Assembly: GCF_013868415.1 (NCBI RefSeq)
Contig: NZ_JACEMT010000046.1
Coordinates: 62,001 to 126,000, forward strand
Length of the DNA stretch: 64,000 nucleotides
Direction of reading: 5' to 3'
Source: Marinobacterium marinum
GTDB taxonomy: Bacteria > Pseudomonadota > Gammaproteobacteria > Pseudomonadales > Balneatricaceae
The position numbers and the translations under genes are program-made. Every line of letters begins with the position of its first letter. Position 1 is the first letter of the stretch. Shown here one piece after another: positions 54,717 to 62,504 of this stretch. The notes beneath the pieces were generated by a model, which was given only the letters and a program-made list of their open reading frames with translations, was not told the origin of the DNA and searched no databases.

Positions 54717-54806
54717 ATGGCCAAAGGTAAAGAGAAAAAGCAGCCAACCAAAACCTTGAAAGAAAAGCGCCGTGAAAAGCGCGAGAAAAAGCAGGACGAG
54801 TCCTGA
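54717..54806 (+). CDS. 29-residue lysine-rich peptide
   Basis: A very short gene between the Rnk-like gene and a terminator. It reads ATG to TGA at 54717-54806 and encodes 29 residues, 14 of them Lys or Arg and 5 Glu, with a KEKRREKREKKQDE end. GGAG lies eight nt before the ATG. The composition suggests a nucleic-acid- or ribosome-binding peptide, but no family is claimed. The strong ribosome site, complete terminator and AT-rich upstream gap (54602-54716) support a real gene. Confidence 0.6.
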   Translation: MAKGKEKKQPTKTLKEKRREKREKKQDES

Positions 54807-54812
54807 CGCTGA

Positions 54813-54839
54813 GGCGCTCTTCATGAGCGCCTTTTCTTT
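54813..54839 (+). terminator. rho-independent terminator
   Basis: Stem GGCGCTC/GAGCGCC (54813-54819 and 54825-54831), loop 5 nt, then TTTTCTTT. It lies 6 nt after the stop of the 29-residue gene and isolates this unit from the Pho-type operon downstream. Confidence 0.88.
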
Positions 54840-54848
54840 GCCATCAGA

Positions 54849-54904
54849 CTTTCACTGTCCTGTCATCTGACTGTTGCCGTCCTGTAACCCTTCCGCCCAA
54901 TAAT
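54849..54904 (+). promoter_or_regulatory. Pho box (PhoB site) and -10 box of the deoR-ugp-like operon
   Basis: Four 7-nt repeats at exact 11-nt spacing: CTTTCAC (54849), CTGTCAT (54860), CTGTTGC (54871), CTGTAAC (54882). Pairs of such repeats 4 nt apart are the Pho box recognised by PhoB (established for E. coli pstS, phoA and ugp). AATAAT follows at 54899-54904, 10 nt after the last repeat, where the -10 element sits in Pho promoters. Together they indicate a phosphate-starvation promoter with no conventional -35. Confidence 0.8.
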
Positions 54905-54958
54905 TTCGTTCGAAACCCCATGACAACCTTGCGAAACAAGGCATACACGCGAACGAAA
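54904..54958 (+). promoter_or_regulatory. paired half-sites, probable DeoR-family operator
   Basis: TTTCGTTCG at 54904-54912 and its exact reverse complement CGAACGAAA at 54950-54958 flank the likely transcript start and the deoR ribosome site. The first site overlaps the -10/start region. GlpR-like DeoR regulators bind TTCG/CGAA-containing sequence, so these are candidate autoregulation sites (inference). Confidence 0.5.
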
Positions 54959-54962
54959 GCCC

Positions 54963-55751
54963 ATGACACTATCCGAGCGACAAAACCGCATTCTGGCTCT
55001 GCTCAACCAGGCCGGTGGCAGCCTGACCAGTAGCGAACTGACGCAGGCCTTTGAAGTGTCCGTGCAGACCATCCGCAAGGATCTGAATATCCTGAGTCAC
55101 CAAGGACTGGTCCAGCGCGTGCACGGCGGTATCACCCTGCCACACCAGAACCGCAACCTGTCGTTCAGCAATCGCCTGGTTATCAATCTCGCAGCCAAGC
55201 AAGCCATTGCTCAGGCCGTTGCCGCACGCCTGCCGGAAGGCGCTTCCGTATTTCTCGGTATCGGCACCACTCCGCAGCAGGTAGCACGGGCGCTACTGCA
55301 CCACCCCGGTCTACAGGTGATCACCAACAATCTCAACGCTGCCGTTACCCTGTGCCAGAACCCCAATATCGAAACCCTGGTAGCCGGCGGGCGCATCCGC
55401 CCCTCCGATCAGGACCTGATGGGTGAAGATACCACCCGCTTTTTGCGCCGGTTTCAGGTCAATTTCGGCATTTTGGGCGCCGGCGGAATCAACGCCAAAG
55501 GCGAGCTGATGGATTTCTCGCTGGAGGAATCACACTTGTCTCGCGCCATTATCGACTGCAGCGACCAATGCATTCTGGTCACCGATAGCAGCAAGTACCT
55601 GCGCAGCGCACCGGTACGTACCGGCTGCATCAGCGAAGTGGATATGTTCGTGACCGAACAGCTGCCTGCGCCGATCAATGCCCTGCTGCGCGACACGCAT
55701 ACCGAGGTGATCTGCACTTCGACACAGGAGACACCCCATGAGCCAACTTGA
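54963..55751 (+). CDS. DeoR/GlpR-family transcriptional regulator
   Basis: A 262-residue repressor-type regulator. N-terminal HTH (LTSSELTQAFEVSVQTIRKDLNILSHQGLVQRVHGG) and a DeoR C-terminal sensor domain (FLGIGTTPQQVARAL, VITNNLNAAVTLC, VAGGRIRPSDQDLMGEDT, LVTDSSKY) that binds phosphosugars or polyol phosphates in the family. It is first gene of the transport operon and overlaps the ATPase gene by 14 nt. A phosphorylated product of the imported compound is the likely effector. The ribosome site is weak. Confidence 0.9.
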   Translation: MTLSERQNRILALLNQAGGSLTSSELTQAFEVSVQTIRKDLNILSHQGLVQRVHGGITLPHQNRNLSFSNRLVINLAAKQAIAQAVAARLPEGASVFLGIGTTPQQVARALLHHPGLQVITNNLNAAVTLCQNPNIETLVAGGRIRPSDQDLMGEDTTRFLRRFQVNFGILGAGGINAKGELMDFSLEESHLSRAIIDCSDQCILVTDSSKYLRSAPVRTGCISEVDMFVTEQLPAPINALLRDTHTEVICTSTQETPHEPT

Positions 55752-56781
55752 AGTTCAGACACTATGCAAAGCCTGGGGAGACACCCGGGCCGTCAGCGAT
55801 ATCAGCTTTTCCATCGAGCCAGGCGAGTTCGTAGCACTGCTGGGGCCCTCCGGCTGTGGCAAGTCCACCACCCTGAAAATGATCGCAGGGCTGGAGACGC
55901 CAACCTCGGGGTCGATCCGCCTCAACGGTCGCGACATTACCCGCCTGCCGCCGGGCCAGCGAGGACTGGCAATGGTGTTCCAGTCCTATGCCCTGTTCCC
56001 GCATCTGAGCGTGGCCGAAAATATTCTGTTCGGCCTCAAGGCCCGGCGCGTTGCCGTGGAAGAGCGCAACCGCCGTCTGCGTCAGGTCACCGAACTGGTC
56101 GATCTGGGCCCTCAACTGCATAAGAAGCCGGGGCAGCTTTCTGGCGGCCAGTGTCAGCGCGTAGCACTGGCCCGTGCCATCGTGGCCGAAGCACCGCTGT
56201 GCCTGATGGACGAACCTCTGTCCAACCTGGACGCCAAACTGCGCAACGAGATGCGCGCAGAACTGCGCTCGCTGCAGCAGCGATTGGGCATGACCGTACT
56301 CTACGTCACCCACGATCAGGTGGAGGCGATGAGCATGGCCGACCGTATCCTGTTGCTCAACCAAGGCCGGGTGGCCCAGATGGGTACGCCTCAGGCACTC
56401 TACAGCACACCGGAAAACACCTTCGTGGCCCGCTTTATCGGCAATCCGCCAATGAACCTGATTGATACTGGCCAGCACCGTATCGGCATCCGCCCCGAAC
56501 ACGTGCACTGCCATCATCAGGGAGAACCCGCCCGCGTCCTTGGCTGCGACTACCATGGTGCCGATACCATCATTGATGCCGTTCTGACCCGTCTGGGGGA
56601 TCAGCTCATCAAGCTGCGCCTGCCCGGTCACCAATTGCTGTCCTGCGGTGCCGAATTGAAACTCAATTGGCTCCCCGAACATGAACATGGCTTCTGTGCG
56701 CATAGCGGGCAGCGGCTAAACACACCCTTTGCGCCACTTTCTACTTATTTTCCCCATACGGAGTCTTACCATGTTGCATAA
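55738..56781 (+). CDS. ABC transporter ATP-binding protein, UgpC/MsmK type
   Basis: A 347-residue importer ATPase. Walker A GPSGCGKSTT, signature LSGGQCQRVALARAI, Walker B CLMDEPLSNLDAKLR, H-loop YVTHDQ. The C-terminal 110 residues are the regulatory OB-fold of MalK/UgpC type (GIRPEHV), a place where UgpC is inhibited by phosphate and enzyme IIA-Glc. It overlaps deoR, and its last 11 nt overlap the binding-protein gene. Confidence 0.9.
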   Translation: MSQLEVQTLCKAWGDTRAVSDISFSIEPGEFVALLGPSGCGKSTTLKMIAGLETPTSGSIRLNGRDITRLPPGQRGLAMVFQSYALFPHLSVAENILFGLKARRVAVEERNRRLRQVTELVDLGPQLHKKPGQLSGGQCQRVALARAIVAEAPLCLMDEPLSNLDAKLRNEMRAELRSLQQRLGMTVLYVTHDQVEAMSMADRILLLNQGRVAQMGTPQALYSTPENTFVARFIGNPPMNLIDTGQHRIGIRPEHVHCHHQGEPARVLGCDYHGADTIIDAVLTRLGDQLIKLRLPGHQLLSCGAELKLNWLPEHEHGFCAHSGQRLNTPFAPLSTYFPHTESYHVA

Positions 56782-58048
56782 AGGCAAGCACCTGCTGGCA
56801 GTCGGCCTGACCTCTCTGGCCGCTACTGCGGCTCAGGCCAAGACAGAACTGACCATGTACTACCCGGTATCGGTCGGCGGCCCGCTGACCCAGGTTGTGG
56901 ACGGCATGATCGACCAGTTCGAGCAACAAAACCCGGATATCGACGTCAACGCCATTTATGCAGGCAACTACAATGATGCTCGCATGAAGGCTCTGGCCGC
57001 ACTGAAAAGCGGCCAACCGGCACAGCTGTCGGTGATGTTTTCCATCGATGTGCATGAACTCAAGGACCTGGATGCCATCGTGCCCTTTGATGAAGTGGTG
57101 CAGACTGCCGAGGAACGCCAGTGGCTGGACAGCTTCTACCCGGCCCTGATGGAAAACGGCAAGGTGGAGGGTACCACCTGGGGCATTCCCTTCCAGCGTT
57201 CGACCATTGTGATGTACTACAACAAGGACGCCTTCCGCGATGCTGGCCTGAATCCTGAGCAGCCACCCCAAAACTGGGACGAACTGGCCGAGATGGGACA
57301 AAAGCTGGTCAAAACCGATGCCGATGGGCAGGTCCAGCGCTGGGGCGCGATGATTCCGTCCACCGGCTACCCCTACTGGATGTTCGGTGCCCTGGCCAAA
57401 CAGAACGGCGAAGTACTGATGAACAGCGCCGGTAACGAAACCTACTTCAACAAGCCCGCCGTGGTGGAAGCCCTGCAGTACTGGAGCGACCTGGGCAGCC
57501 AGTACAGGGTGATGCCTCAGGGCACCATCGAATGGGGCACCTTGCGCCAGAACTTCCTGGAACAGAAGACCGCCATCATGTGGCACTCCACCGGCAACCT
57601 GACGGCGGTGAAGAAGAACGCCGATTTCGATTTCGGCGTGGCCATGCTACCCGCCCGCAAGCAGTTCGGCTCACCCACCGGCGGCGGCAACTTCTACCTG
57701 TTCAAGAAATCCACCGATGAGGAACGCCGTGCCGCACTGAAGCTGGTCCGCTTCATGACCTCACCGGAACAGGCCGCCAGCTGGAGCATCGCCACCGGCT
57801 ACATGGGCGTCAGCCCGGCATCCTACGACACCGAAGCCTTGCAGGAATACGTCCAGACCTTCCCGCCGGCCGCCGTTGCCCGCGACCAGCTGGAATACGC
57901 CACCGCAGAACTGGCGACACACCAGGCCGGTCGTGTACGCAAGCTGCTGGATGATGCCATCCAGTCGGTCCTGAACGGCCAGGCCGAACCCCAGGCCGCG
58001 CTCGACGCGGCCCAGCAGCAGGCCAAACGTATCCTGTCCCGCTACTGA
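56771..58048 (+). CDS. ABC transporter substrate-binding protein, UgpB-like
   Basis: A 425-residue periplasmic binding protein with a signal peptide (LLAVGLTSLAATAAQA cut before KTE). Blocks shared with UgpB: GNYNDARMKALAALKSG, GIPFQRSTIVMYYNKDAFRDAGLNPEQPPQNWDELA, and GGGNFYLFK. UgpB binds sn-glycerol-3-phosphate and glycerophosphodiesters; the ligand here may differ. Start ATG 56771 (CGGAG eight nt upstream), not the 56729 frame start. Operon member 3. Confidence 0.88.
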   Translation: MLHKGKHLLAVGLTSLAATAAQAKTELTMYYPVSVGGPLTQVVDGMIDQFEQQNPDIDVNAIYAGNYNDARMKALAALKSGQPAQLSVMFSIDVHELKDLDAIVPFDEVVQTAEERQWLDSFYPALMENGKVEGTTWGIPFQRSTIVMYYNKDAFRDAGLNPEQPPQNWDELAEMGQKLVKTDADGQVQRWGAMIPSTGYPYWMFGALAKQNGEVLMNSAGNETYFNKPAVVEALQYWSDLGSQYRVMPQGTIEWGTLRQNFLEQKTAIMWHSTGNLTAVKKNADFDFGVAMLPARKQFGSPTGGGNFYLFKKSTDEERRAALKLVRFMTSPEQAASWSIATGYMGVSPASYDTEALQEYVQTFPPAAVARDQLEYATAELATHQAGRVRKLLDDAIQSVLNGQAEPQAALDAAQQQAKRILSRY

Positions 58049-58115
58049 TCCAAACGGCCTGTGGCATTCGCGCCGCAGGCCGCTTTCGACCCGGATATTT
58101 CTGCAAGGCGACACG

Positions 58116-58988
58116 ATGAACCGATTGTCCTGGCTGCATGCCTGGCTGATGCTGCTCCCGGCACTGGCCATGCTGCTGGCATTCACCCATATCCCGACCC
58201 TGACCACTCTCTGGCACTCGCTTTTTTTTCCGGCACGGGGCAGTGAAGCCGCCGAGTTTGCCGGACTCGACAACTACCGCATGATGCTGGAGGACGATGT
58301 TTTCTGGCAGGCACTGAGCAACAATCTCTGGTACGCGCTGGGCACCGTCCCCACCTCCATTGCGCTGGCCTTGGTGATGGCGCTCTGGGTCAACAGCAGG
58401 ATCAGCGGCCGCACCGCACTGCGTCTGGCCTACTTTACCCCGACCATGCTGCCAATGATCGCCGTGGCCAATATCTGGCTGTTTTTCTATACCCCCGAGA
58501 TCGGCCTGTTCAACAAGCTGCTGGCTCTGTTCGGCCACCCCGGCATCAACTGGCTGGGCGACCCCGATTGGGCCCTGCCGAGTCTGATGCTGATGACCGT
58601 CTGGAAAGAGGCCGGCTTCTTCATGATTTTCTACCTGGCCGCTCTACAGACACTGAGCCGTGACATCTACGATGCCGCCGCTCTGGAGGGTGCCGGGCGC
58701 TGGTACACCTTCAGACGACTGACCCTGCCACTGCTGATGCCGACCACCCTGTTTGTGCTGGTGAACGCCATCCTCAACGCCTTCAAGCTGGTGGATCACC
58801 TGTTCATCCTCACCAAGGGAGGCCCCAACAACGCCAGTAACCTGCTGCTCTACTACATCTACGAAAATGCCTTCAGCTTCTTCGACAGCAATTATGCCGC
58901 CACTCTGACCGCCGTGATGCTGCTGATGCTGATCCTGCTGGCACTGCTGCAGTTCGGCGTGCTCGAACGCCGCATCCACTACCGCTGA
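58116..58988 (+). CDS. ABC transporter permease, UgpA-like
   Basis: A 290-residue inner-membrane permease with six predicted helices. It carries the EAA motif of importers as DAAALEGAGRWYTFRRLTLPLL, which docks on the ATPase. NLWYALGTVPTSIALALVMAL and FKLVDHLFILTKGGPNNAS are usual for UgpA/MalF-type permeases. 67 nt after the binding-protein gene; start ATG 58116. Confidence 0.9.
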   Translation: MNRLSWLHAWLMLLPALAMLLAFTHIPTLTTLWHSLFFPARGSEAAEFAGLDNYRMMLEDDVFWQALSNNLWYALGTVPTSIALALVMALWVNSRISGRTALRLAYFTPTMLPMIAVANIWLFFYTPEIGLFNKLLALFGHPGINWLGDPDWALPSLMLMTVWKEAGFFMIFYLAALQTLSRDIYDAAALEGAGRWYTFRRLTLPLLMPTTLFVLVNAILNAFKLVDHLFILTKGGPNNASNLLLYYIYENAFSFFDSNYAATLTAVMLLMLILLALLQFGVLERRIHYR

Positions 58989-58997
58989 GGCCAAGAC

Positions 58998-59810
58998 ATG
59001 ATGACCCGATTGAACACCTTCCTGTCCACCTCAGCCGCCTGGCTGCTGGGCCTGTTGTGGATACTACCTTTGCTGTATGCCCTCTGGGCCGCGACCCATC
59101 CGGCGGAATATGCCACTCGTTTCGACCTGCTTGCGCCGCTGACCGGCGAGCACTTCGTCACCGCATGGCAGCAGGCGCCCTTCATGCGTTACATGCTCAA
59201 TACAGTGATCATCACCGGGCTGATCCTCGCCGCCCAACTGGTGCTCTGTACGCTTGCCGGCTATGCCCTGGCACGAATGCGGTTTCGCGGTCGAGGCCTG
59301 GCCTTCGCACTGGTGTTGCTGCAGTTGATGGTGATGCCGGAAATCCTGATCGTGGAAAACTACCGCACCCTGTCCGGACTTGAACTGATCGACACTCATC
59401 TCGGTGTTGGCCTGCCCTACATGGCCAGCGCCTTCGGCATTTTTCTGCTGCGCCAGACCTTCAAGGGCGTCCCCCAGGAGCTGGAAGATGCCGCCCGTCT
59501 GGAAGGCTGCTCCCGTCTCGGCGTGCTGTGGAAAGTCTATGTGCCACTGGCCAAGCCTACTTACCTGGCTTACGGGCTGGTGTCCGTCAGCCACCACTGG
59601 AACAACTTCCTCTGGCCGCTGGTGGTCACCAACACCGAGAACAGCCGCCCGCTCACCGTGGGCATGGCGATCTTCGGCGCGCCCGAATCGGGCGTCGACT
59701 GGCCGGTCATCTGCGCCGGCACCCTGATCGCCATCGGCCCGCTGCTGGCCGTTTTCCTGCTGTTCCAGCGCCGCTTCGTCCAGTCCTTCATGCATGCGGG
59801 GTTGAAATGA
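58998..59810 (+). CDS. ABC transporter permease, UgpE-like
   Basis: A 270-residue permease with six helices. EAA loop: ELEDAARLEGCSRLGVLWKVYVPLAKP. NTVIITGLILAAQLVLCTLAGYALARMRF and NNFLWPLVVTNTENSRPLTVGM are typical of UgpE/MalG-type subunits. 9 nt after the first permease, overlapping the next gene by 4 nt (ATGA), so translation is coupled. Confidence 0.9.
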   Translation: MMTRLNTFLSTSAAWLLGLLWILPLLYALWAATHPAEYATRFDLLAPLTGEHFVTAWQQAPFMRYMLNTVIITGLILAAQLVLCTLAGYALARMRFRGRGLAFALVLLQLMVMPEILIVENYRTLSGLELIDTHLGVGLPYMASAFGIFLLRQTFKGVPQELEDAARLEGCSRLGVLWKVYVPLAKPTYLAYGLVSVSHHWNNFLWPLVVTNTENSRPLTVGMAIFGAPESGVDWPVICAGTLIAIGPLLAVFLLFQRRFVQSFMHAGLK

Positions 59811-60640
59811 TGCCAAGCACCCTGCGTATCCTCAGCTGGAATATCCAAAACGGCAAAGGCTGTGACAGTCGCATCGACATTGTCCGTATCATCGACTATA
59901 TGCAGGCGCAGGGGCCGCTGGACCTGATCTGCCTGCAGGAAGTAGCACGCCATTTCCCCGAATACACCAGCGCCAAACAGCCCGACCAGCTGCAGGCCCT
60001 GGTCGACGCCTTCCCCGACTTCGTCCCGGTCTGGGGCGCGGCACTCAGTTGGCCAGGCACAGCACCACAACGGCGCCGCGAGTTCGGCAACCTGACCCTG
60101 ACCCGCCGGCCTCTGCTGGATCGTCGCATACACGTACTGCCCGCGACATCGGCGCAATCCTCAGGACAGGAGCTGCAGACGCCCCGCTGCGCAGTGGAAA
60201 CCCTGATCGAAGGAAACGCCGGCCCGTTACGGATACTCAACGCCCATCTGGCCTTTCATGATGCCCATGAGCGCAGGCAGCAACTGGCCTATCTGAGCAG
60301 CCTGCAGCAGCAGGAGCCGCCGCAGACACAGGGTCCCGGCATTTATGCCCAGCCCTTTCACTGCGTACGCACTCTGCTGTGTGGCGACCTCAACCTGGAC
60401 AGCCGCCACGAGCACTATCGCTGGCTGGCCGCCCAAGGCTGGCAGGATGCCTGGCAACTGTGCCACGGCAGCCGCTCTCATCAACCGACCTGCGGCATCC
60501 ACGACCTTGAACAATGGCCTCAGGGCCCGCACTGCCGCGATTACTTCTGGCTGCAACAGCTCCGACCACTGGAACTTAAAGTCGACACACTCACCAACCT
60601 CTCGGACCATCAGCCCCTGATTTTGACTCTGGAACACTGA
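59807..60640 (+). CDS. EEP-superfamily phosphodiesterase of the transport operon
   Basis: A 277-residue endonuclease/exonuclease/phosphatase-fold protein without a signal peptide. Metal and catalytic motifs: ILSWNIQNGKG, ICLQEVARHFP (Glu), ILNAHLAFHD (His), LLCGDLNLD (Asp/Asn) and LSDHQPLIL (Asp-His). The fold cleaves phosphodiesters or phosphomonoesters. In ugp operons the equivalent place is UgpQ, an unrelated GDPD enzyme. Start ATG 59807 overlaps the permease stop. Substrate unknown. Confidence 0.88.
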   Translation: MMPSTLRILSWNIQNGKGCDSRIDIVRIIDYMQAQGPLDLICLQEVARHFPEYTSAKQPDQLQALVDAFPDFVPVWGAALSWPGTAPQRRREFGNLTLTRRPLLDRRIHVLPATSAQSSGQELQTPRCAVETLIEGNAGPLRILNAHLAFHDAHERRQQLAYLSSLQQQEPPQTQGPGIYAQPFHCVRTLLCGDLNLDSRHEHYRWLAAQGWQDAWQLCHGSRSHQPTCGIHDLEQWPQGPHCRDYFWLQQLRPLELKVDTLTNLSDHQPLILTLEH

Positions 60641-60641
60641 C

Positions 60642-61451
60642 ATGAACATACAGCCCCCAAAACCCCTTCCCACGCGACTGGATCCGTCGATTCGCTACCT
60701 GTTCACCGATGTGGACGATACCCTGACCTGGGAAGGCCGCCTTCCCGTCGAAACATATGCCGCCCTCGACAGCCTGCAGCGCGCTGGAATCAGCGTTATC
60801 CCGGTTACCGGCGCCTGCGCGGGCTGGTGCGACTGCATCGTCAGGACCTGGCCGGTCACCGCCGTGATCGGCGAGAACGGCGCCTTCTGGATGCAACAAG
60901 ACGAAACCGGCATCATCCGGCGCCACTACCGTCAGTCCGAAACCAAACGTCATGTGCAGGCGCTTCAGCTGGGTCACCTGCAACAACAGCTGATCGACCG
61001 CTACCCCTTTGCCCGCGCGACCGCCGACCAACCCTATCGCGAAACCGACATCGCCTTTGACATCGGACAGCAATGGCACACCACCCCCGAGGAGCAACAG
61101 AAGATTCTGCTGTCATTGCAGAGCGCCGGTGTACACGCTCGCCTGAGTTCCATTCATATCAATGCCTGGCTGGGCAACTACGACAAGGCCAGTACCGCCC
61201 GTGCCTGGCTCGAGCAGGAAGCACAACGGCAGAGCACCCCCATTGGCGAGCATGAGGTTGCCTTTATCGGCGACTCAGGCAACGATGCAGCCATGTTCGA
61301 GCAGTTCAGCAACACCTTTGGCGTGGCCAATATCGCTCGCTTTCTTGACAAGCTGCCTCGCCCGCCACGCTTCATCACGTCAGCCAATGGCGGCTTCGGT
61401 TTTGTTGAACTGGCCGACCGCCTGCTGGCCTCCTCGCTGCGCACCGACTGA
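60642..61451 (+). CDS. HAD-superfamily phosphatase (Cof/type IIB)
   Basis: A 269-residue hydrolase. Motif I FTDVDDTLTWEG with the nucleophile Asp, motif II PVTGA, GENGAFW, and motif IV FIGDSGNDAAMFEQF. The IIB cap fits sugar- or polyol-phosphate phosphatases. Last gene of the operon, 1 nt after the EEP gene. It probably removes phosphate from the product of the EEP enzyme (inference). Confidence 0.88.
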   Translation: MNIQPPKPLPTRLDPSIRYLFTDVDDTLTWEGRLPVETYAALDSLQRAGISVIPVTGACAGWCDCIVRTWPVTAVIGENGAFWMQQDETGIIRRHYRQSETKRHVQALQLGHLQQQLIDRYPFARATADQPYRETDIAFDIGQQWHTTPEEQQKILLSLQSAGVHARLSSIHINAWLGNYDKASTARAWLEQEAQRQSTPIGEHEVAFIGDSGNDAAMFEQFSNTFGVANIARFLDKLPRPPRFITSANGGFGFVELADRLLASSLRTD

Positions 61452-61483
61452 CAGACAAGGGCGTTTTCGGGACGCGGATTGTT

Positions 61484-61489
61484 TATAAT
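61484..61489 (+). promoter_or_regulatory. -10 box of yejK
   Basis: A perfect TATAAT 34 nt before the yejK start, in the 72-nt gap after the HAD gene. No good -35 is seen at the right distance. Confidence 0.4.
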
Positions 61490-61523
61490 CCGTATCCCGT
61501 TCAACTCAACCCGGAGCCTGACC

Positions 61524-62504
61524 ATGCCCGCCACCGCCGCCATTGCCCACCGCCTGACGCGCCGCACCGGTGATCAATCCTACAACCTGCGTGAAGCGCT
61601 TTTCGACCGGGAAGGGCTGAACAACCGACTACTGGCGGAGATTAAACCTCTCTTCACTCGCCGCGCCAGCAAACGCTACGGCTGCTTCGCAGACGAAGCC
61701 ACGGTATTCAAGGGATTACTGTTGAACTGGCGTGATCAGACCTTGAGCTTTACCCAATTCAGCGCCAAGGTAATCGAGCACCTGGCCATGCTGATGGAGC
61801 AGGAAGATCTGGAAACCGACGGCCATTGGCTGTTTATCGAGGAAGAACTGGAAGCCGCTCATCGCCTTTGGGTCGCCCATCTCAAACAGAAAGATGGCCT
61901 GCTGTTGAATACCGACAATGACTTGCAGGAAACCGGCTATATCGACTTTGCCAAAACCGGCCTCTGTGCCTGTATCGACCTCCACGAGATCGACAATCCT
62001 GACGGCAAGCGTTACCTGACGCTGAGTTTCGGTTTCGGCGACCGTCCCCTGCAGCAGCCGCTGATGGGCTTCTTCGGCTTTACCGACACCGTGGACACTC
62101 AGGCCGATACCGAGCGCTTCATGGAGGTCGTGAGCGACTACGCCGAGGCGATGCCGGAAGATAATGCCAAGCGTTACCAGAAGGAAGTCGCCGAGTTCTG
62201 CATGGAGCAGTCCAAGGAAGGCGCCGCCGTCAACTATCGCGAGCTGGCCGGCAACGTGGACTCCGTGGCCGAGGTCTCACTCGACGACTTCATCGCCGAG
62301 CGTGCGCCCGAGCTGAAGGAGGAGTTCATCCCTGATCGCAGCAGCCTGAAAAAGTACATTCGCTACACCGGGCGCACCAAAGAGGTTTCCATCAGTTTCA
62401 GCAACGAGTCGCTGGGCAAGTCGATCACCTTTGACCCGGCCACCGAAACGCTGACACTGAAAGACCTGCCCTCAGCATTGATCAAGCAGCTCAAAGGGGA
62501 ATAA
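61524..62504 (+). CDS. yejK: nucleoid-associated protein YejK/NdpA
   Basis: A 326-residue 37-kDa nucleoid-associated protein. Family blocks are FAKTGLCACIDLHEIDNPDGKRYLTLSFGFGDRPLQQ, FFGFTDTVDTQADTERFMEVVSDYAE and the C-terminal LKKYIRYTGRTKEVSISFSNESLGKSITFDP. The NdpA fold is known for DNA association; exact role is unclear. ATG 61524 with CGGAG upstream fits the family start. Confidence 0.92.
   Translation: MPATAAIAHRLTRRTGDQSYNLREALFDREGLNNRLLAEIKPLFTRRASKRYGCFADEATVFKGLLLNWRDQTLSFTQFSAKVIEHLAMLMEQEDLETDGHWLFIEEELEAAHRLWVAHLKQKDGLLLNTDNDLQETGYIDFAKTGLCACIDLHEIDNPDGKRYLTLSFGFGDRPLQQPLMGFFGFTDTVDTQADTERFMEVVSDYAEAMPEDNAKRYQKEVAEFCMEQSKEGAAVNYRELAGNVDSVAEVSLDDFIAERAPELKEEFIPDRSSLKKYIRYTGRTKEVSISFSNESLGKSITFDPATETLTLKDLPSALIKQLKGE

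Follow-up and report, generated by a model that had tools for sequence, protein, structure and literature searches.

Upstream of an operon that combines a DeoR-family regulator, a Ugp-like ABC transporter, an enzyme of the endonuclease/exonuclease/phosphatase (EEP) family and a HAD phosphatase, the window, i.e. the whole 64,000-nucleotide stretch of Marinobacterium marinum DNA analysed here, carries a ladder of tandem repeats of the kind found in PhoB-dependent promoters. A first-pass annotation had taken the ladder to make the whole operon a likely phosphate-starvation system. The locus thus raises the question of whether PhoB controls this operon, whether starvation for phosphate would suffice to switch it on, and what kind of compound its transporter and hydrolases would handle. 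Our results favour, with somewhat better than even confidence, an operon that is activated by PhoB and repressed by its own DeoR regulator, and that imports an organophosphate for subsequent cleavage by the EEP enzyme and dephosphorylation by the HAD phosphatase.

The Pho box and the phosphate genes of the genome

The Pho box occupies positions 54849-54888 (+) and consists of four 7-mers in 11-nt steps, CTTTCAC (54849), CTGTCAT (54860), CTGTTGC (54871) and CTGTAAC (54882), which match CTGTCAT at 5, 7, 4 and 5 of 7 positions, respectively. All four CTGTCAT-like repeats lie where the first-pass annotation had placed them, and the -10 hexamer AATAAT that it had reported 10 nt downstream of the last repeat is present at 54899-54904 (+). 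Its description of the box as exact is too strong, as one of the four repeats equals CTGTCAT and the other three carry two to three mismatches. A possible fifth, distal repeat, TTGCCAT, is found one step upstream of the box (54838-54844, +), and the ladder that starts from it, at 54838, ranks second by matrix score (26.6). A pattern scan detected no sigma-70 hexamer pair that uses the AATAAT at 54899-54904 and no good -35 element, as expected of a PhoB-activated promoter.

The box stands out from its surroundings by two kinds of search. A ladder of four CTGT units with at most three mismatches has three matches in the window, all of them overlapping the Pho box, where 0.48 were expected, and at least three matches were reached in one of 100 shuffles. 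For the second search, we used a PhoB matrix of seven positions, built from 21 repeat units of the E. coli K-12 promoters phoA, phoB, pstS, ugpB, phnC, phoE and phoH, all of which are PhoB-controlled; the units were picked by eye, some of them are weak, and E. coli PhoB promoters are their sole source. Scoring with such a matrix had been proposed alongside the original claim, and the outcome is in its favour: the four-repeat score at 54849 is 31.8, the highest among the 127,922 positions that the two strands of the window offer, and exceeds the maximum of 21.8 reached in 60 Markov windows (64 kb, both strands). Overlapping shifts of the same ladder score 26.6, 14.0 and 11.7, and the best score in the window that does not overlap the box, on either strand, is 9.9. 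A whole-genome search for strict pairs of the forms CTGTCAT-N4-CTGTCAT and CTGTNAY-N4-CTGTNAY found none, which is in line with degenerate repeats. The Pho box is real and ordinary in kind.

Between the promoter and the sequence upstream of it, the pattern scan also found a terminator-like hairpin of nine pairs followed by TTCTTTGCCA (54811-54833, +); such hairpins match three times in the 500-nt region, shuffles giving 0.8, and are weak evidence by themselves. A very basic 29-codon reading frame, MAKGKEKKQPTKTLKEKRREKREKKQDES, at 54718-54804 (+), ends shortly upstream of this hairpin. Compared with the related loci, it gave nothing below E 0.20 except the window's own copies.

A PhoB gene is present in the genome (359 bits, cut-off 296), and the genes for PhoR, PhoU, PstB, PstA, PstC and PstS lie with it on one 19-kb stretch, all above the cut-offs of their models. 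The PstS of this genome is named by TIGR02136; TIGR00975, tried as a PstS model, was a poor one for this protein. The best two-repeat site of the 19-kb stretch is situated directly upstream of pstS (CTGTCAC and CCGTCAC, followed after 10 nt by TATAGT) and scores 16.4, and the spacing of 10 nt from the box to the -10 is the same as at the Pho box of the window. On the scale that gives 16.4 before pstS, the best two repeats of the window score 19.5, the matrix background and floor of these later scorings not being identical to those of the window ranking; the window box is at least equal in quality to the pstS box. The site directly upstream of phoB reaches a two-repeat score of 12.3, which two other sites on the minus strand of the same 19 kb slightly exceed (13.0 and 12.9), and is therefore a weak positive control.

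PhoB control is thus supported by the anatomy of the box, its matrix score, the presence of genes for PhoB, PhoR, PstSCAB and PhoU, the similar box before pstS and the in-register conservation described below, and the proposed assignment of the operon to phosphate starvation thus finds partial support. The switch probably comprises more than this box: a conserved DeoR-type operator covers the expected start, and starvation for phosphate is therefore predicted to be insufficient alone.

The operon, its enzymes and its transporter

Profile matches confirm the DeoR, ABC transporter, EEP and HAD content claimed for the 6.5-kb operon, which spans 54963-61451. The first gene encodes a DeoR-family regulator of 262 aa (54963-55751, +) with a helix-turn-helix (HTH_DeoR, 62.2 bits) and a DeoRC sensor domain (150.8 bits), both above the Pfam cut-offs. 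Its best model is NF008154 'DeoR/GlpR family', which we take to be the model of E. coli GlpR, and its 211.9 bits stay under the cut-off of 331, so that the regulator does not qualify as GlpR proper. It is followed by a UgpC/MalK-type ABC ATPase of 347 aa (55738-56781, +; UgpC model 363.5 bits, cut-off 432), a UgpB-like substrate-binding protein (56771-58048, +; UgpB model 184 bits, cut-off 411), a UgpA-like permease (58116-58988, +; 122.3 bits, cut-off 335), a UgpE-like permease (58998-59810, +; 124.8 bits, cut-off 297), the EEP-family enzyme (59807-60640, +; Exo_endo_phos 43.3 bits) and a HAD-IIB phosphatase (60642-61451, +; HAD-IIB 57.2 bits, cut-off 41.8). For the binding protein the ATG at 56771 was selected as the start, the listed open reading frame beginning at a TTG at 56729. 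With the chosen start codons, deoR overlaps the ATPase gene, the ATPase gene that of the binding protein, and the permease gene that of the EEP enzyme. These overlaps and the conserved gene order suggest that the genes form a single transcript. Downstream of the operon lies a gene for a nucleoid-associated NA37/NdpA protein (61479-62504, +), which occupies the same place in M. stanieri (L053).

We compared the best 80 of 156 related loci found, which belong mostly to Gamma- and Alphaproteobacteria as judged by record titles, and which are not independent of each other. The order regulator, ATPase, binding protein, two permeases and EEP is kept in 51 of these 80 loci; the HAD gene comes next after the EEP gene in 28 of the 51 full loci and was not found directly downstream in the other 23. 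A partial transporter was seen in 14 of the 80, in many cases because or where the contig is short or cut; a further 15 gave no permease or binding-protein match, in the case of L063 at least because the contig starts at the EEP gene. Within the family, an EEP match is present in 17 of 116 genomes, that of the window included, and a close binding protein in two of the eight genomes of the genus. The distribution of the operon is patchy in both. Two loci depart from the common arrangement. In Pokkaliibacter plantistimulans (L058) the cluster is rearranged to HAD, DeoR and EEP, the HAD stretch as aligned contains one stop codon, and neither a transporter match nor an operator was found at this locus. 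In L065, two tandem HAD matches, 47% and 39% identical to the HAD protein of the window, stand behind the EEP gene.

Members of the EEP superfamily share catalytic motifs with Asn, Glu, His, Asp-x-Asn and Asp-His. The corresponding residues N12, E45, H147, D194, N196, D267 and H268 are invariant in 36 sequences, and together with the predicted fold they place the enzyme in the superfamily. The HAD motifs DxDxT, Thr, Lys and GDSxND are likewise represented by residues invariant in 22 sequences (D23, D25, T56, K182, G210-D211-S212, N214 and D215), and the model of this protein matches HAD-IIB sugar phosphatases, in agreement with its assignment to HAD-IIB. Both structure models have a pLDDT of 94. 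The EEP model matches phosphodiesterases and phosphatases of the EEP superfamily, and its neighbours include TDP2, a sphingomyelinase, nocturnin and a mannosyl-6-phosphatase. Similarity to these folds is remote, with a TM of about 0.6-0.7 and 14-20% identity, and since phosphomonoesterases and DNA-end enzymes are among them, diester cleavage is a prediction only. Inspection by eye found no signal peptide in either enzyme, and no membrane anchor in the EEP protein.

The nearest PDB neighbour of the binding protein is UgpB. The four phosphate contacts of Phaeobacter UgpB (Tyr64, Ser143, Ser266 and Tyr342) are all kept, as are Gly303, Arg393 and Trp188, whereas two of its glycerol contacts are changed, Glu88 to Ser and Trp191 to Met. 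Of the Trp-Trp clamp and the acidic residue that serve the glycerol moiety, the first Trp is thus retained. The kept contact residues are invariant in an alignment of 18 sequences that includes E. coli UgpB. In its description of the UgpB contact residues, PMC12718374 assigns E88 and W191 to the glycerol moiety, gives the Trp pair as a mark of glycerol-phosphate binders, and reports the phosphate residues to be common to glycerophosphocholine and dinucleotide binders too. The residue evidence appears to tie the transporter to phosphate esters, and what fits best is a phosphorylated ligand with an organic part different from, or larger than, that of glycerol 3-phosphate. The identity levels of the binding protein (69-87% to that of the window in 16 chosen relatives) and of the EEP enzyme (36-65% in 35 relatives, at loci chosen separately from those 16) suggest that one substrate is kept across relatives.

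The same residues bear on the possibility that the transporter, like Ugp, takes up a phosphomonoester (a sugar phosphate, glycerol 3-phosphate or glycerol 1-phosphate), with the HAD enzyme freeing the phosphate and the EEP enzyme acting elsewhere or as a monoesterase. The retained phosphate contacts, with G303 and R393, would suit such a ligand, as would the 'DeoR/GlpR family' model as the best match of the regulator and the mannosyl-6-phosphatase annotation of one structural neighbour of the EEP enzyme. We nevertheless consider phosphomonoester uptake unlikely, because the residues that PMC12718374 assigns to the glycerol moiety, E88 and W191, are S and M here, and because the 184 bits of the binding protein fall far below the UgpB equivalog cut-off of 411. 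Moreover, genome G025 has an 87% identical homologue of the binding protein beside a second UgpB-like protein that is 26% identical, which indicates that both can coexist.

A conserved palindrome and the Pho ladder among related promoters

Comparison of the promoters of related operons brought out a palindrome, TTTCGTTCGAAA, at 54904-54915 (+), which begins on the final base of the -10 hexamer AATAAT and covers the expected transcription start. Its place and its co-conservation make it the probable main operator of the DeoR protein that the operon itself encodes. The comparison comprised 28 promoters with a DeoR at least 50% identical, namely those of 25 loci, the window (L035), L022 and L033; the further relatives left out of these counts are mostly duplicate records. 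Two sites with at most three mismatches in 10 positions were found in the last 130 nt of 27 of the 28 promoters, against a mean of 2.2 loci and a maximum of 9 in mononucleotide shuffles. The sequence TTCGWWCGAAA has three strand matches at two places in the whole genome, the operator at 54904 included, and its reversed-pattern control also has three; it is neither rarer nor commoner than this control, and the operator call therefore rests on conservation.

The two best sites lie 21-22 bp apart in 10 loci, 43-44 bp in seven, 52-53 bp in three and 31-32 bp in two, and in the remaining five, the window among them, the distances are 13, 17, 28, 69 and 72 bp. A statistic for periodicity of the operator spacing (0.67 at 10.6 bp) was no better than in shuffles, 139 of 300 of which reached it; as shuffled promoters seldom yield two sites, this comparison says little, and we report the spacing clusters as observed. 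In the window, the second site picked automatically, 13 bp off, with three mismatches and within the spacer and -10, is probably not a real site. This pick passed over the half-site CGCGAACGAAA at 54948-54958 (+), recognised by eye 43 bp downstream of the first operator, which is a possible second operator; at the same place and distance, M. mangrovicola (L048) and M. lutimaris (L049) have a complete second operator. In Neptunomonas antarctica (L069) and in L033 there is overlap between the upstream operator (CTTCATACGAAA and TTTCATACGAAA) and the proximal Pho repeat, so that activator and repressor would share bases. Four Kiloniella operons whose DeoR is less closely related (L094, L099, L101 and L108) carry another palindrome, ATGTAAGAAAGTTTACAT or near it, upstream of deoR, which is perhaps the operator of the regulator of those operons.

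We then looked for the Pho ladder in the register that it has to the operator in the window, anchoring each promoter on as many as three candidate operators and requiring a four-repeat ladder score of at least 8, a threshold that we set ourselves; anchoring on a single operator per locus gave outcomes that varied with the operator chosen, and the three-candidate count is reported instead. At shift 0, the ladder is present in 14 of the 28 promoters. The counts at other shifts are 0-3, except at +10 (7), +11 (9) and -11 (9), where they are raised by the 11-nt period of the ladder and by second operators about 21 bp away. The conservation of the 11-nt repeats upstream of orthologous operons, on which the phosphate-starvation claim had been made to depend, is thus partial: the ladder is in register in 13 of the 27 relatives and out of register or absent in 14. 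Four of these 14 have a Pho-like match elsewhere. In M. stanieri (L053), with a DeoR 80% identical to that of the window, the ladder is 1 bp out of register, and L059, L061 and L078, with Pho-like sites further from the register, pass an unanchored four-repeat shuffle test, which L052, L054, L055, L060, L062, L067, L074, L083 and L104 do not pass; the last of the 14 is L058, the rearranged cluster in which no operator was found. Several gammaproteobacterial MAGs keep the operators and lack the Pho ladder.

At a level of 0.05, 28 of 53 promoters pass the unanchored test, 16 of 26 where the DeoR is at least 50% identical (window included) and 12 of 27 below 50%, and the forward strand scores above the reverse in 38 of the 53. 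For part of the 12 passing promoters with a distant DeoR, the match is explained by another palindrome (ATGTAAG...TTTACAT). Since these promoters pass as well, the shuffle test alone cannot single out PhoB sites, and the Pho-like matches before the 27 more distant regulators were set aside. Across the promoters compared, the putative repressor site occurs more constantly than the Pho box, which only part of the set possesses.

This unevenness, i.e. about half of the relatives without an in-register ladder and operator-like pairs in nearly all, is what a sugar or polyol operon under DeoR alone might display, the Pho-like ladder being idle or serving another OmpR-family regulator, and the genome does encode seven proteins with an OmpR-family DNA-binding domain. 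Such a reading is very unlikely, given that a matrix derived from E. coli PhoB promoters only puts this site first, that the box and the -10 are as far apart as before pstS in this genome, and that the phosphate contacts are retained in the binding protein.

Proposed mechanism and comparison with known systems

From the box, the conserved palindromes, the gene order, the catalytic residues and the phosphate-contact residues, all of which are directly observed, we infer a promoter with two locks and an ordered pathway behind it. At low phosphate, phosphorylated PhoB would bind the four-repeat Pho box and recruit sigma-70 RNA polymerase to AATAAT. DeoR would occupy TTTCGTTCGAAA over the start site and a second site downstream, and would be released only once a phosphorylated intermediate appears in the cell. 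The transporter would import an organophosphate, whose phosphate group the binding protein would grip in its Tyr/Ser cage; this compound is most likely a phosphodiester with an organic part larger than, or different from, that of glycerol 3-phosphate. The EEP enzyme would then cleave the diester in the cytoplasm, and the HAD enzyme would free the phosphate from its product, which would probably also be the inducer of DeoR. Our confidence in this two-lock reading is reduced by the weak control that the box upstream of phoB provides and by the distant promoters that pass the shuffle test. That the EEP enzyme acts instead on the cell's own lipids or nucleotides under phosphorus stress, with the transporter salvaging the products, is highly improbable, for although its fold neighbours include sphingomyelinase and the DNA-end phosphodiesterase TDP2, its gene stands directly behind the permease gene, in an order with the transporter that is kept in 51 of the best 80 of 156 loci, and the protein has neither signal peptide nor membrane anchor by eye.

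The PhoB-activated, DeoR-repressed import system may have a wider meaning, which we put forward tentatively and at somewhat less than even confidence: an unnamed import-then-cut pathway for one phosphodiester, widespread in Gamma- and Alphaproteobacteria, with an EEP enzyme in place of UgpQ. At some of its promoters PhoB and DeoR would form an AND gate, with the operator pairs in helical spacing, and in L069 and L033 the two regulators would be rivals for one set of bases. Each of the parts belongs to a known kind; their combination, a Pho box joined to a repressor-type site, looks uncharacterised. Beyond the Pho box, the analysis points to a second lock as probable, shows how unevenly the two go together in relatives, and adds the residues that speak for phosphate esters. 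Dissolved organic phosphorus includes phosphodiesters with poorly known users. A conserved transporter with the phosphate cage kept and the glycerol clamp altered, together with two hydrolases, leads to a short list of substrates, and the operon could supply a set of genes that mark the use of diesters. The promoter would be a compact natural example of gating by starvation and substrate, and the relatives with a repressor-type site and no in-register Pho box could reveal gain or loss of such wiring.

The E. coli ugp system, which takes up glycerol 3-phosphate and glycerophosphodiesters, is under PhoB control. The window operon resembles ugpBAECQ in its transporter of the UgpB, UgpA, UgpE and UgpC type and in the degenerate tandem Pho-like repeats, which are also found upstream of E. 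coli ugpB; ugpQ, at the end of the E. coli operon, is a gene for an intracellular phosphodiesterase. Unlike in ugp, the first gene here is the operon's own deoR, with an operator over the promoter, the gene order is C-B-A-E, an EEP enzyme replaces UgpQ, a HAD phosphatase is added, and the binding protein is 28% identical to E. coli UgpB. It shares the phosphate-cage residues with marine UgpB, and it differs from the UgpB and GpxB of marine bacteria, which bind glycerol 1-/3-phosphate and share no sequence similarity with each other (PMC12718374), in the replacement of one clamp Trp and of the Glu that contacts a hydroxyl.

A search of titles and abstract beginnings in the open-access literature found no paper describing the window operon, and the main text of PMC5082522, as far as available, contains neither ugp nor DeoR. 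In Phaeobacter sp. MED193, the products of MED193_11288, _11293 and _11308, listed as a 'predicted phosphodiesterase' and 'sugar ABC transporter' proteins, are raised in phosphorus stress; in the phoB mutant the phosphodiesterase and the ATPase were undetected, and the binding protein was still raised, and scarce (PMC10132767). In pairing a phosphodiesterase with a sugar-type ABC transporter at nearby locus numbers, this cluster recalls the window operon; unlike the latter, it shows no regulator or HAD protein in the table passage of that paper. The MED193 cluster may be a relative of the window operon.

The acc (agrocinopine) operon of the Agrobacterium Ti plasmid is comparable in plan. AccR is DeoR-like, and the binding-protein and enzyme families of acc differ from those of the window operon. 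According to the description in PMC4526662, acc comprises the repressor AccR, an ABC transporter, the putative phosphodiesterase AccF and the phosphatase AccG, and the sugar 2-phosphate freed by AccF is bound by AccR; the system is additionally activated by phosphate limitation, as stated in PMC4086400. Regulator, ABC transporter, phosphodiesterase, phosphatase and control by both substrate and phosphate would thus have their counterparts in the window operon. Unlike acc, which is plasmid-borne and opine-specific, the operon type of the window occurs in relatives on contigs of up to 4.1 Mb (G079). The window operon may work like the Agrobacterium acc operon, in a likeness of plan for which we claim no homology.
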